Part shown: one piece after another, positions 7,093 to 44,055 of the stretch
Layout: every line of letters begins with the position of its first letter
How positions within the stretch are numbered: position 1 is the first letter of the stretch
Assembly (NCBI GenBank): GCA_903929315.1
Contig: CAIYUC010000228.1
Coordinates: forward strand, 1-44,055
Length of the DNA: 44,055 bases
Source of the DNA: an uncultured Bacteroidales bacterium
GTDB lineage: Bacteria > Bacteroidota > Bacteroidia > Bacteroidales > FEN-979
Reading direction: 5' to 3'
The notes under the pieces: model-generated
The model's input: the letters and a program-made list of their open reading frames with translations, nothing else
Told to the model about the DNA's origin: nothing
Databases searched by the model: none
Made by a program: the position numbers and the translations under genes

Positions 7093-7124
7093 TTTCGCTA
7101 TTTCGCCATCTCGCTATTTCGCTA
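7093..7124. repeat. Octamer array TTTCGCTA (4 units)
   Basis: Four 8-bp units in exact register: tttcgcta, tttcgcca, tctcgcta, tttcgcta. The same family appears in reverse orientation at 43419-43449. The array ends 29 bp before the ABC ATPase start. Confidence 0.8.
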
Positions 7125-7153
7125 CTTTACCAGTAATTTAATAGGAACCATGA

Positions 7154-9149: not shown

Positions 9150-10250
9150 ATGAAGAAATTTCTTTGTCTACTGATTATCATTGTTTCTTCCCAATTTGTC
9201 ACAGGAAGGATCCTCATGAAGCCATACCTGCAGGCAGTTTCTGCCAACTCAATATATATTATGGTTGAATGTAACAGTCCTGATGCTGTAACAGTGAATT
9301 TCGGACTTACACCGTACTATGGATATACAGCAAGAACGCAAATTATTGCCGCTACCACGGCATCACCGGTCACTTATATCCATAAAGTGAAGCTGGACGG
9401 TTTAACAGCGGATACCAAATATTTTTATGAAGCGATCCAGGGCAATTCGATCCTGAGTGGTTTTAGTTTTCATACTGCTGTAAATCCTGGTACAAGCTTC
9501 AGGTTTACGTGGATGGCTGATTGCAGAACCGGTAACACCGTCCACGATAGGATTTCGGATTTGATAATTGCTGCTAACCCTTTGTTTTCCTTGTATGGAG
9601 GCGATCTTTGTTTTAATTCCTCCTACCATGCATGGAAAAGGGAATTTTTCAGAAGTAATGAACTTAAACTTATCTCGGTTGTCCCATTTTTTAACGCCAC
9701 CGGGAACCATGAAGGGATTGGTCAAAACACTGATGTATTCCTCCAAAATCCTTCATCGGCTTCTAATACTCAGGATTATTATTCATTTGATTACGGGGAT
9801 ATTCATTTTTTATGCATTAATACCGAACTGTCATGTGCTGAAGGCAGTCCTCAATTTAAATTTGCTGAAAAAGATCTGGCATCTGCAAAGCAACTATGGA
9901 AGATAGTTTTTTCCCACATTCCCGGTTATGGCTCCGGTGGTCATGGTGAAGATTCGGTTATCATCAATATGATTAAAAAAATATTTGAACCCAATCATGT
10001 GAATCTTTTGTTTGCTGGACATTCCCACTTTTATCAGCACAATCTTGTAAACGGAATACACCACCTGATCATCGGTTCTGCCGGAGCACCTCTTTACAAC
10101 CCTACGAATGCTTCCTATACGATCAAATCTGTAAAAGATTATAATTTCGCCGTTATTGATGTGACAACTGACTCTCTGACCATCAATGTGTACAATGATA
10201 AAAATTTCAAACTTGATTCCCTTAAATTGACCAGAAATACGGGTAAATGA
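9150..10250 (+). CDS. Secreted metallophosphoesterase, purple acid phosphatase-like, with N-terminal FnIII domain
   Basis: I start at the ATG at 9150, which gives 366 residues opening with a signal peptide (MKKFLCLLIIIVSSQFVTG). The upstream ATG at 9087 adds 21 residues partly next to the decamer array. Residues 20-110 form a fibronectin-III-like domain typical of purple acid phosphatases (KPYLQAVSANSIYIMVEC, LDGLTADTKYFYEA). Metal motifs follow: ADCRTG (Asp124), GGDLCF (Asp152), GNHE (185-188), FSHIP (His256) and AGHSHFY (291, 293). The Tyr of the classical GDxxY motif is Phe155, so the Fe-tyrosinate that gives these enzymes their colour should be absent. It is probably a periplasmic phosphomono- or diesterase. 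Confidence 0.85.
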   Translation: MKKFLCLLIIIVSSQFVTGRILMKPYLQAVSANSIYIMVECNSPDAVTVNFGLTPYYGYTARTQIIAATTASPVTYIHKVKLDGLTADTKYFYEAIQGNSILSGFSFHTAVNPGTSFRFTWMADCRTGNTVHDRISDLIIAANPLFSLYGGDLCFNSSYHAWKREFFRSNELKLISVVPFFNATGNHEGIGQNTDVFLQNPSSASNTQDYYSFDYGDIHFLCINTELSCAEGSPQFKFAEKDLASAKQLWKIVFSHIPGYGSGGHGEDSVIINMIKKIFEPNHVNLLFAGHSHFYQHNLVNGIHHLIIGSAGAPLYNPTNASYTIKSVKDYNFAVIDVTTDSLTINVYNDKNFKLDSLKLTRNTGK

Positions 10251-10345
10251 ATGTGATACACCACCGGTTCTCGGTTCCATCACATAATCCGCCTCTTCCA
10301 AAAATAATCTATGAAACCCGATATTTGCACGTTAATCCTGTAATC

Positions 10346-10394
10346 GTGACGTGTCACGTGTCACGCGTCACGTTCTATTGCCTGGTGCCTATTG
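10346..10394. repeat. Heptad array (7 units), GTCACGT-like then CCTATTG-like
   Basis: Seven 7-bp units in perfect register: four of the gtcacgt type (10346-10373) and then three of the cctattg type (10374-10394), so the consensus changes within one array while the period holds. The array contains the stop codon (10361-10363) and the last codons of the macrodomain gene on the minus strand. Confidence 0.85.
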
Positions 10395-10900
10395 CCTTTA
10401 ATCAGACCTTTGTATATATCAAAATTGTCTTGGTCAAAACAAACGAATATCACCACCTCGGGAACTTTGTTCTTTTCAAGAAACAACGTAATTTCACGAA
10501 CAGCAATTTTTGCGGCCAGATCTTTAGGAAAGTGATATACTCCCGTACTGATATTCGGGAAAGCGACTATTTTACAGTCATTCTCTGCAGCTAATTGCAG
10601 GCTGTTTTTGTAACAATTTGCCAGCAATTGTTCCTCATCCTGTGTACCCTCTCTCCAGACCGGGCCGACCGTGTGAATGATGAATTTTGCAGCCAATTTA
10701 AAAGCTTTCGTAACTTTCGCTTCACCGGTCTCACAACCACCCAGAAGCTGGCATACAGCAAGCAATTCAGGCCCTGCTGCTCGATGTATGGCACCATCAA
10801 CACCACCACCTCCGAGTAATGAAGTATTTGCTGCATTTACAATAGCATCAACCTGAAGTTTTGTAATATCCCCCTGAATTAATTCAATACGATTTGTCAT
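10361..10900 (-). CDS. Macrodomain protein, O-acetyl-ADP-ribose deacetylase type
   Basis: Macrodomain of the YmdB/MacroD class, which removes acetyl or ADP-ribose groups. It shows [21 protein letters not shown] at the start, then [17 protein letters not shown] (substrate loop with catalytic Asp), [17 protein letters not shown] and [13 protein letters not shown] prefer the ATG at 10900 ([13 protein letters not shown], 179 residues). The frame opens four codons earlier at 10912, but those codons belong to the heptad array. The last 11 residues ([11 protein letters not shown]) and the stop are encoded by the other array at 10346-10394, so the natural C-terminus has probably been replaced. It is the last gene of the mtaB-led run. 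Confidence 0.9.
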
Positions 10901-10903
10901 TGT

Positions 10904-10980
10904 ATTCATCATCCGTCATTCTTGAATTCATAATTGGTTAAATAACTCACCATTTCACCAGTTCATTGGCCGATTGACAA
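10904..10980. repeat. Heptad array (11 units) between macrodomain and inositol-phosphatase genes
   Basis: Eleven consecutive 7-bp blocks, beginning attcatc, atccgtc, attcttg, fill the gap and end exactly at base 10980, next to the stop codon of the downstream-numbered gene (10981-10983). The first 50 bp are closely similar to 15633-15690. The later units (ctcacca, tttcacc, agttcat) are more divergent. Confidence 0.7.
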
Positions 10981-11775
10981 CTAAGTTTGCCTGAATTTCT
11001 CCTTAAAAGCTTGTATAAAATTATTAAAAACGTTCTTGTTAGTAGCAATAATTTCCTTCCCGAATATATAATCATCTCCCAACCGGAAATCACAGATTTT
11101 ACCCCCTGCATTCTCCACTAACAGGCATCCGGCAGCCACATCCCATGGATTCAGCCCGTATTCATAGAATCCATCGAATCGTCCACAGGCAACATAGGCA
11201 AGATCCGCAGCGGCTGAACCCAACCGCCGGATGCCATGGGTAGTTCCCATAAAATACCGGAAGACCGAAAGATAAGCATCAAGCCGGTCGAAATCGTAAT
11301 AGGGAAATCCCGTGGCTAAAAGGCAATCGCAGAGTAAAGCCGCTTCCGATACTTTTATGACCTTCCCATTTAAAAAAGAAGGAGAATCTTTCCAGGTATA
11401 AAAGCATTCATTCCTGTTAATTTCAAAAACGACCCCTGCGAGCACTTCCTTATTTTCCATCAGCCCGACACTGATGGAGAAAACAGGAATACCATGGATG
11501 AAGTTAGTCGTCCCGTCGAGAGGATCGATCACCCAGTTTATCTCACCGGTTTTAAGAGCAGGGCTCTCTTCAGCGATAAAGCCTGTACCGGGCAATATGG
11601 ATGCGAGACCCGAGATCAACCGTTCTTCGGATTGTTTATCGACATAGGTAACAAAATTATTATAGCTCTTGCGCTCTATATCGGAGGTATGAAAAGTAGC
11701 TGTTTCTTCCCGGATATATGCACCGGTCTTGACCACCAGATCACAAACCCTTCCGGTAATATTCTTCAGGTCCAT
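10981..11775 (-). CDS. suhB: Inositol monophosphatase family protein
   Basis: The 264-residue product has all Mg2+ ligands of the family: AEES (Glu69, Glu70), WVIDPLDGTTNF (Asp84, Asp87) and NPWDVAAGCLLVENAGG (about residues 205-221). Such enzymes dephosphorylate inositol phosphates or related sugar and nucleotide phosphates. SuhB in E. coli also acts in rRNA transcription. In Bacteroidetes the physiological substrate is usually unproven. The ATG at 11775 is 3 bp after the Lgt-like stop, which supports translation from one mRNA with mtaB and the Lgt-like gene. The symbol is by family only. Confidence 0.9.
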   Translation of the reverse strand: MDLKNITGRVCDLVVKTGAYIREETATFHTSDIERKSYNNFVTYVDKQSEERLISGLASILPGTGFIAEESPALKTGEINWVIDPLDGTTNFIHGIPVFSISVGLMENKEVLAGVVFEINRNECFYTWKDSPSFLNGKVIKVSEAALLCDCLLATGFPYYDFDRLDAYLSVFRYFMGTTHGIRRLGSAAADLAYVACGRFDGFYEYGLNPWDVAAGCLLVENAGGKICDFRLGDDYIFGKEIIATNKNVFNNFIQAFKEKFRQT

Positions 11776-15608: not shown

Positions 15609-15696
15609 TTACTGATTACGAATTACGGATTATGTATTCGTCATCCGTCATTCTCGAATTCGTCATTGGTTAAAATAACTCACCAGTTCTTATTGC
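15606..15696. repeat. Long heptad array (13 units) starting at the arcC stop codon
   Basis: Thirteen consecutive heptads begin with the arcC TAA (taattac, tgattac, then gaattac) and drift gradually to tcatccg, tcattct, gtcattg and ccagttc. It ends 10 bp before the stop of the convergent histidine kinase gene. The central 50 bp match the array at 10904-10980 in the same orientation. Confidence 0.8.
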
Positions 15697-20580: not shown

Positions 20581-21120
20581 ATGAAAGATCTTGAAAAATA
20601 TGTAAAAGACAACCTGGAACTTTTCAATGATGCCGAACCGGAGCCGGATCACTTTGAGAAGTTCAGGAATAAGCTTGAACTGCAGGGAAACGGAGGTTAC
20701 AATATTCAAAGATCGGGAATGATGCTTAAAATTGCCGCTGCCATTTTGATATTTCTAATGACTGCAGTTTTTATTTTCGATTACTCCATCCATGGGTTGA
20801 GAAACATGCTTGCCCCGCAAACTGCAGCAGTTGTTTTTCCTGCTGATGTCAGTGACGCTATGCAATACTATTCCCAGGAAGCCTCACAAGGGATGAATGA
20901 AATAAATCAATTGGCCGGATCAGGTGAAGAAGCCCAACAGTTAAAGGCTATGGCATCAAAAGACCTGAGATCATTGGATGCCAATACATCAGAACTGACC
21001 AGGGCCTACCGGGACAATCCGGATGATGAACGTATCACTGCCGCAATAATAAGGAATCAACAAATGAAAGAAACCATTATCAAAAATATAATTCAGGAGA
21101 TGAACCAAACAAAAAAATGA
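20581..21120 (+). CDS. Single-pass membrane protein, probable anti-sigma factor
   Basis: The 179-residue product starts MKDLEKYVKDNLELFNDAEP and has EPDHFEKFRNKLE, a short cytoplasmic region like those of Bacteroidetes anti-sigma or regulatory proteins. One membrane helix follows at about residues 47-67 (MMLKIAAAILIFLMTAVFIF). A periplasmic helical domain follows, with SDAMQYYSQEASQGMNEI and repeated Gln/Asn-rich helices. There is no zinc-binding anti-sigma motif (HxxxCxxC). Its position 62 bp behind the ECF gene is the main reason for the functional suggestion. I do not recognise the periplasmic part. Confidence 0.75.
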   Translation: MKDLEKYVKDNLELFNDAEPEPDHFEKFRNKLELQGNGGYNIQRSGMMLKIAAAILIFLMTAVFIFDYSIHGLRNMLAPQTAAVVFPADVSDAMQYYSQEASQGMNEINQLAGSGEEAQQLKAMASKDLRSLDANTSELTRAYRDNPDDERITAAIIRNQQMKETIIKNIIQEMNQTKK

Positions 21121-21125
21121 ATTCA

Positions 21126-21188
21126 GAATTTAAAAAGCAAAAATCAAAAAGCAAAAAGCAAAATGCAAAATGCAAAATGCAAAATTAA
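21126..21188. repeat. Heptad array (9 units), AAAAGCA to AAATGCA
   Basis: Nine in-register heptads: gaattta, then aaaagca variants, then three identical aaatgca copies, then aaattaa. It begins 5 bp after the stop codon of the putative anti-sigma gene. Confidence 0.8.
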
Positions 21189-21235
21189 AAAATCATTATC
21201 AGTCTCAATTACAATTAATTACTATATTGACCATA

Positions 21236-21295
21236 ATAACAACGAATAACTATGAATAACAACGAATAATAACGAATAACAAAAAATAACAACAA
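21236..21295. repeat. Decamer array ATAACAACGA (6 units)
   Basis: Six 10-bp units in exact register (ataacaacga, ataactatga and variants). The array ends on the A of an ATG at 21295-21297, so it creates a false upstream start for the next gene. Confidence 0.85.
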
Positions 21296-21306
21296 TGACC
21301 AATCCC

Positions 21307-43528: not shown

Positions 43529-44055
43529 CTAATTTTTCAAACACCGGACCGAAAAAGCATTCGTCCTGAAAGCTGGATAAACGGATACACTGGGATCGGT
43601 ATCATTCATCCCGTGACTCCATGCTTTAAGTGTCCCATGTGCTGTAGATGACCAGAAAAATATTGCAAACCCCTGGTAATCCCATGTTTTGTTAAGGTGC
43701 TTTGCACCGTTAAGAAGAGCATTAAAGCCTGAAAATCCTGAATATTTCAGCGGACTGGCTGCAAAACCATTGTTGCCGTAATTTGCAAAAAGTATATTCC
43801 AGTCTGTTTCTGATGGAACATGCCAACCGGGAGGACAGAGGCCCTGGTTGGATACAATTTCATCGTATTGCATAAGTTCGTCCCATTGATAAACGGATGC
43901 TGGATGCTGGATGCTGGATGCCGGATTGTGATATTTCTCGGGGATACAGTTATCTCTCTGATCCAGGTTTGAAGCTATTTCTGTTCCGTTATTCTGGTCT
44001 TCTGCCAACCAGCATTGGCTGCCTATTTGAACAGTTTGATATGTTTTCCCGTCCC
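43529..44055 (-). CDS. FISUMP-domain protein, C-terminal part (5' end outside the window)
   Basis: The frame is open to the right edge and carries the Fibrobacter-succinogenes-major-paralogous-domain pattern: DGKTYQTVQIGSQCWLAEDQNNGTEI from the edge inward, VYQWDELMQYDE, GLCPPGWHVPSETDWNILF, FFWSSTAHGT and SVRCLKN at the end. These are surface-associated repeat-like domains, often in large exported proteins. An internal Met at 44008 is not the start, since the conserved opening lies before it. Between CIPEKY and VYQW the usual CYxNxxxNCxxYGG segment is replaced by about 12 residues encoded by the TGGATGC heptad array at 43894-43928. Confidence 0.88.
   Translation of the reverse strand, partial: DGKTYQTVQIGSQCWLAEDQNNGTEIASNLDQRDNCIPEKYHNPASSIQHPASVYQWDELMQYDEIVSNQGLCPPGWHVPSETDWNILFANYGNNGFAASPLKYSGFSGFNALLNGAKHLNKTWDYQGFAIFFWSSTAHGTLKAWSHGMNDTDPSVSVYPAFRTNAFSVRCLKN
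43894..43928. repeat. Heptad array (5 units, TGGATGC) inside a coding sequence
   Basis: cggatgc, three identical tggatgc and cggattg in register, 35 bp in total, lying within the FISUMP frame. It encodes the stretch NPASSIQHPAS on the minus strand. Confidence 0.9.

Follow-up and report, generated by a model that had tools for sequence, protein, structure and literature searches.

Short tandemly repeated repetitive (STRR) sequences of cyanobacteria are heptanucleotide repeats, several types of which occur in one genome. Three tandem heptanucleotides in Calothrix are mentioned by Rehm et al. (2015, PMC4692102), who described the G-rich heptamers GGGAATC of Xanthomonas and GGGGA(T/C)T of Nostoc. 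These G-rich heptamers are quadruplex formers and are depleted in coding regions and between divergent genes; those downstream of genes are mostly less than 50 bp from the stop codon, some overlap it, and coding-strand copies come closest to it (PMC4692102). Direct repeats of the heptamer TAACTGA were described in Beggiatoaceae, Cyanobacteria and some (five) Bacteroidetes (MacGregor 2015, PMC4679880). The TAACTGA repeats are mostly intergenic and, on one strand, carry a stop in each of the three frames; heptamers were found over stop codons, with some repeat-encoded residues at or near protein C-termini (PMC4679880). In the Bacteroidetes, other heptamer repeats occur beside the TAACTGA ones, one set being located right after a stop codon, and most of the BOGUAY repeats are just upstream of start codons (PMC4679880). 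The occurrence of heptamer repeats at or over stop codons is already published (Rehm 2015; MacGregor 2015).

The window analyzed here (the whole stretch of DNA, 44,055 nt) is one contig, C228, of a 4.31-Mb Bacteroidales genome (G000) that consists of 244 contigs. A search of genome contigs for related loci, in which records of G000 itself may be missing, gave matches of at most 72% identity, and the Bacteroidales metagenome assemblies L177 and L178 were among the closest; the loci obtained were used for the structure alignment. The gene of interest is located on the minus strand and was listed as an ORF of 183 aa beginning at ATG10912 (10361–10912); from the conserved start, ATG10900, it encodes 179 aa (10361–10900). 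Upstream of it, on the same strand, is a gene of the inositol monophosphatase (IMPase) family (10981–11775; PF00459, E 1.9e-55), and a metallophosphoesterase gene on the plus strand, ending at 10250, is convergent with it. The protein contains a macrodomain (PF01661; E 5.1e-48, 162.4 bits against a cut-off of 22). It passes the NCBIfam model of O-acetyl-ADP-ribose deacetylase (NF001664; 229.7 bits, cut-off 200) and scores under the cut-off of each of the other 10 NCBIfam models listed. In 45 aligned sequences, including the query, NAAN and a 10-residue motif were invariant, and S, T, G and Y of the STGVY loop were invariant or nearly so. Fourteen conserved residues, NAAN among them, are presumably those that bind ADP-ribose. 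The mean pLDDT of the AlphaFold2 model was 90.8, and the best match in both sequence and fold was Escherichia coli YmdB (PDB 5cb5 and 1spv; 55–57% identity, TM-score 0.86–0.88), with human MACROD2 being similar (PDB 4iqy; 56% identity, TM-score 0.84). The sequence matches to YmdB and MACROD2 stop at query residue 169–172, short of the array-encoded tail described below. Judged from sequence and model, the gene apart from its tail is a normal MacroD/YmdB-type macrodomain gene, and an ADP-ribosyl hydrolase or deacetylase activity is predicted for its product.

The 3′ end of the gene runs into a heptad array at 10346–10397, in which ACGTGTC-like units are followed by TTGCCTN-like units. The identity of this stretch at a lag of 7 nt was 0.69, and the remaining lags between 4 and 15 gave 0.11–0.36, except for lag 14 (0.58). 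The best lag-7 segment was reached in 0 of 2000 base shuffles, 0.17% of the 52-nt windows of the 44 kb match its lag-7 identity, and TRF identified a repeat of period 7 at 10349–10373. The units recur in the genome: ACGTGTCACGTGTCACG had 11 matches with up to 2 mismatches (0 for the reversed control), and three TTGCCTN units had 114 matches with up to 3 mismatches (18 for the control). A sequence-only reading of the window had held that the last 11 codons and the stop of the gene are read from the array, and this was borne out, since codons 173–183 (10364–10396, of which GN is possibly native) and the stop TGA (10361–10363), both on the minus strand, lie within 10346–10397. On that strand the unit types read CACGTGA and GGCAATA, and both carry a stop, TGA in CACGTGA and TAG in GGCAATAG. 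With a genome in 244 contigs and repeats being prone to misassembly, the array might be an assembly artefact, or the similarity might be due to chance. However, the array is short and internal to the contig, shuffling gave 0/2000, and the pattern recurs at many loci and in other genomes; such an origin is extremely unlikely.

The macrodomain gene was found in 25 of the 43 genomes of the family and in 193 of the 393 genomes of the order. In total, 114 orthologous loci were read, 26 from the family and 88 (28 + 60) from the order, drawn from the 193 order genomes with a match. For the comparison of gene ends, L027, an N-terminal fragment, was omitted, and L023, L024 and L025, which are partial genes, were retained for their C-termini; genome G040 has two copies, of which L026 is the more distant one. 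Relative to query residue 172, the genes at the 113 other loci ended between −1 and +7, with a mode of +1, and the G000 gene ended at +11. The 11-residue tail was present in none of the 113 other family and order loci read, and a search of these loci for array-free orthologues with the same C-terminal residues likewise gave 0/113. One of the two +7 cases is G039, where the C-terminal GLPTAN is encoded by ACTGCCA units; in G032, an array begins directly after the macrodomain stop.

The gene ends were compared in more depth with G028, the only genome of the same genus among the 43 (protein identity approximately 70%), in which the macrodomain gene ends ...CTGATTGCCAATATTACAGGTTAA. The corresponding order in G000 is ...CTGATTAAAGGCAAT, then 46 nt (10390–10345), then ATTACAGGATTAA (10344–10332). 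This last element (10332–10344, minus strand) matched ATTACAGG-TTAA at the G028 stop (P 0.0012, 5000 first-order Markov resamples) and reads as a relic of the ancestral gene end. It is followed by a stretch shared with G028, AAATATCGGGTTTCATAGATTA (10305–10326, minus strand), for which 0 of 2000 resamples were as good; this appears to be the ancestral 3′ flank, and its TTCATCGATT-like part was found in 5 further family loci. With both flanks matched, the 46-nt stretch (10345–10390) can be read as an insertion relative to G028. Pairwise global and family alignments both placed G000-specific extra sequence here, the gaps around the old stop being positioned differently and not uniquely. GGCAAT, which adjoins the array, resembles GCCAAT of G028 (AN in that protein), and because GGCAAT (GN) may be native, 9 to 11 codons would be array-made. 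As the tail is in none of the 113 other loci and the old-end match is located beyond the array, these data indicate that the array replaced the natural C-terminus. The earlier proposal that the C-terminus was overwritten is thus retained as to replacement and revised as to manner: in the comparison with this one distant relative, the array appears to have entered upstream of the old stop and not to have overwritten it. Alternatively, the native stop may have mutated first, so that the ribosome ran into an array already present downstream. Arrays do often begin just past stops (3 to 15 nt past the stop in 9 of the 19 listed near gene 3′ ends in the genome sample below), as the array of G032 also does. 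However, the match to ATTACAGG-TTAA lies beyond the array and not before it, which fits insertion ahead of the stop, and we consider that stop loss came first unlikely.

Taken together, the locus is likely an ordinary macrodomain gene in which a short heptad array has replaced the last codons. We propose that an array of approximately 46 nt arose, through insertion or local expansion, a few codons upstream of the old stop and put that stop out of reach. The array itself would then terminate translation, as both of its unit types carry a minus-strand stop. As 7 is not divisible by 3, regular heptads containing TGA or TAG stop any frame within 21 nt; tails therefore stay short, and an insertion near a gene end costs a short tail only. 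The tail would be disordered and tolerated rather than functional, which fits the AlphaFold2 model: pLDDT was below 50 at residues 1–3 and 180–183 and averaged 65 over 171–180, and ten-residue blocks across 11–170 averaged 81 to 99. The tail is probably inert. Recruitment of the tail for a function, such as localisation, degradation or partner binding, is very improbable. The tail is in frame, and a short strand is predicted at 176–178, in a block of mean pLDDT 65; however, model confidence is low there, the relatives do without the tail, and other arrays yield unrelated tails (GLPTAN in G039, and NEQ and KQ in other genes).

The array might also be mainly a transcription terminator between the two convergent genes, in which case the tail would be a side effect of its position. 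In plus-strand RNA the array can form a hairpin (10345–10372; −20.9 kcal/mol, z −2.2) that is terminator-like for the phosphoesterase gene. Three terminator-like sites, the array among them, were found at 10150–11050 (0.5 expected), and gene 5′ ends are poor in heptad arrays. However, the hairpin has a weak T tract, the z of the minus-strand fold is −1.4, and many of the sampled units are non-palindromic (TTGCCTA, CAATGAA, ATTACGA). The hairpin arises because the CACGTG unit is near-palindromic, which counts against termination as the main role, and we regard this role as an improbable main explanation.

At the other end of the gene, the sequence-only reading had attributed the four residues MMNT and a false start codon to a second heptad array at 10904–10980. 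The lag-7 identity of this region was 0.40 and its lag-8 identity 0.46, with a shuffle P of 0.12; approximately 3% of the 77-nt windows of the 44 kb equal it at lag 7, and 1.7% do so over lags 6–9. Its periodicity exceeds that of most stretches, though no heptad array can be demonstrated, and the array was dropped on the shuffle test in favor of a dispersed repeat. The copy of this repeat at 10904–10929 (plus strand), ATTCATCATCCGTCATTCTTGAATTC, is one of 8 in the genome and gives ATGATGAAT (MMN) on the minus strand. The copies were counted as genomic matches to ATTCNTCATCCGTCATTCTNGAATTC with up to 3 mismatches, of which the control had 0. Two copies of the repeat, ATTCGTCATCCGTCATTCTYGAATTC, are in the window (10904–10929 and 15636–15661; 0.01 expected), and the others are at L357 and L360–L364. 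The MMN codons ATGATGAAT (10904–10912) are inside the repeat, and the T codon (10901–10903) is outside. The repeat-derived origin of MMN, and with it of the extra upstream ATGs, was thereby upheld; a heptad array as their source, and an origin of the T codon in the repeat, were not. In 4 of the 8 copies (L358, L359, L360 and L364), an opposite-strand ORF ends 71–98 nt to the right of the repeat start, so that the repeat lies beyond the stop of that gene, which at the macrodomain locus is the IMPase gene. By eye, the copies at L357–L360 resemble one another over a longer stretch of approximately 60 nt.

The repeat occupies part of the 80 nt (10901–10980) that separate the IMPase stop from ATG10900, a spacer absent from most relatives. 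The spacing of the IMPase and macrodomain genes was measurable in 22 of the 26 family loci; the genes overlap by 4–22 nt in 14 of these and are 5–10 nt apart in 5, and gaps of 47, 80 and 183 nt were found in G032, G000 and G028, respectively. Since most family loci overlap or nearly abut, the spacer was taken to be extra sequence. An ATG was present between 2 codons before and 3 codons after the projected position of ATG10900 in 105 of the 114 loci, the 9 others including partial genes, and an ATG 3 or 4 codons upstream of that position was present in 6 of the 114, the G000 gene included. In the alignment with E. coli YmdB (1spv), the first YmdB residue pairs with query residue 5, which is the Met of ATG10900. 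ATG10900 is thus the conserved start, at which translation most likely still begins, rather than at ATG10912. The N-terminal ATGs come from a dispersed repeat, separate from the array, in the spacer past the IMPase gene.

The placement of heptad arrays was analyzed in 441 kb of G000, comprising the window and contigs chosen because they contain TTGCCT arrays, with 344 genes called by our own ORF-calling script. This sample contained 61 repeat segments at lag 7, 27 at lag 8, 4 at lag 9 and 9 at lag 10, and none at lags 5, 6 and 13; 53 of the 61 lag-7 segments were more than half intergenic. Merging gave 55 heptad arrays, of which the 46 located between two called genes were tested (excluded were 8 mostly within called ORFs and 1 lacking a right-hand gene). 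A gene 3′ end was at most 20 nt away for 19 of the 46 (null 10.9, P 0.0008), and a gene 5′ end for 4 (null 9.2). A stop codon was overlapped by 10 of the 46 (null 5.3, P 0.03), a start codon by none of the 46 (null 4.5, P 0.007), and between same-strand genes 30 of 34 arrays were nearer the 3′ end. When the longest possible starts were used, the counts out of 46 were 19 near 3′ ends, 5 near 5′ ends, 10 over stops and 1 over a start, with 28 of 34 nearer the 3′ end. The notion that arrays can enter coding ends therefore holds for stops (10/46) and not for starts (0/46, or 1/46 with the longest starts), and it is already in print. Lag-8 arrays lacked a 3′ bias: a 3′ end was at most 20 nt away for 6 of 26 (null 5.6) and was the nearer end for 4 of 12, so that a property of short tandem repeats in general was ruled out. 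The G000 arrays near 3′ ends showed no clear preference for the stop-bearing strand (14 vs 11 of 28), and arrays at orthologous gene ends lean to that strand (22 vs 10 of 37); the strand test does not show selection of arrays as stop reserves.

Other repeats were observed in the same material. In the window, an AAAAAGC-type heptad array extends from a stop codon and is followed by a separate 10-nt array, AATAACAACG (together 21119–21302), and 7093–7127 is an example of a lag-8 segment, TTTCGCTA. A GGATGCT array of 4.6 units (43895–43926) lies inside a called ORF near the contig end, and long arrays of this unit are also present on contig C143 (L114, between 6169 and 8955). One intergenic region contains a TTGCCTA array of approximately 18 units (L111 15595–15723; C55:35595–35723).

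Four extra genes, encoding an OmpA-family protein, AtpB, YchF and a GNAT protein, were chosen because an array covers their stop in G000, and each was compared with 24 relatives (25 loci read per gene, out of 41 to 43 genomes with a match). With the macrodomain array counted in, 5 of the 10 stop-overlapping arrays were thus compared with relatives. The OmpA-family protein (C26:30098–32563), in which OmpA was the only Pfam domain at E 1e-10 or better, has its stop in the array and is 2 residues longer than 20 relatives, 1 residue longer than 3 and level with 1. AtpB (C229:15124–16191; PF00119), whose stop is also in an array, ends 1–3 residues past all 24 relatives. Despite the array over the stop, YchF has the same end residue as 24 of 24 relatives, and the GNAT protein is never longer than its 24 relatives.

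Stop regions, running from 21 nt upstream to 70 nt downstream of the stop codon, were then scanned for arrays. Lag-7 arrays were found at 6 of 26 family loci and 1 of 88 order loci of the macrodomain gene, and at 1 of 25 OmpA, 15 of 25 AtpB, 11 of 25 YchF and 4 of 25 GNAT loci; the AtpB and YchF loci, at which stop arrays recur, are L282–L306 and L307–L331, respectively. Over all 214 loci there were 38 arrays at lag 7, 13 at lag 8, 1 to 4 at each of lags 9–13 and none at lags 5 and 6, and the 26 macrodomain family stops had 0 at lags 5 and 6 and 1 at lag 8. Distinct consensus units numbered 5 of 6 at macrodomain, 12 of 15 at AtpB, 10 of 11 at YchF and 3 of 4 at GNAT stops, and an ACGATTT unit at the AtpB stop was common to four loci, three of them from one genus. 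The units therefore often differ, with some sharing by descent visible; at the macrodomain stop, the heptads found in other genera are not those of G000. For the extra genes, arrays were found at 10 of 93 5′ ends and 31 of 100 3′ ends, a contrast biased by the selection of these genes for 3′ arrays in G000. A wider reading of these data is that gene 3′ ends in the family are recurrent birth or landing sites, at which the position (on a conserved stop or directly behind it) and the 7-nt period persist while the heptad often differs between genomes; we consider this unlikely. If it were true, an active, position-guided process would write heptads, perhaps coupled to transcription ends or repair, and protein C-termini would be reshaped as a by-product.

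At the macrodomain gene, the conversion of a non-coding tandem array into the end of a conserved protein can be followed almost to the base. Because the same gene ends carry different heptads in the genomes of one family, the origin of the arrays and their clustering at stops can be tested by comparison. For annotation, C-terminal tails and possible extra starts in such genomes should be viewed with caution, as they may be repeat-derived and functionless. Different heptads at the same orthologous stop were not reported in the titles and abstract beginnings covered by a limited search of the open-access literature.

Compared with the systems described, the G000 arrays resemble the TAACTGA repeats, as both are 7-nt direct repeats that are mostly intergenic and in some cases lie over stops. 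The array units are not TAACTGA, however, and many unit types are present in the G000 genome. The argument that a 7-nt period brings a stop into all three frames is the same as that made for TAACTGA (MacGregor 2015, PMC4679880). Whereas the BOGUAY repeats, as described there, are mostly upstream of starts, the G000 arrays favor gene 3′ ends and avoid starts. The heptamers of Xanthomonas and Nostoc are, in their published description, G-rich and strand-dependent; in contrast, the G000 units vary and show no clear strand preference, and the macrodomain array is not G-rich, no run of three G being present in it on either strand. By description, the G000 arrays also resemble STRR sequences in being heptanucleotide tandem repeats of several types per genome. 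With its 7-nt tandem unit, its many mostly intergenic copies and their location near or over stops, the macrodomain array fits the intergenic heptamer arrays.
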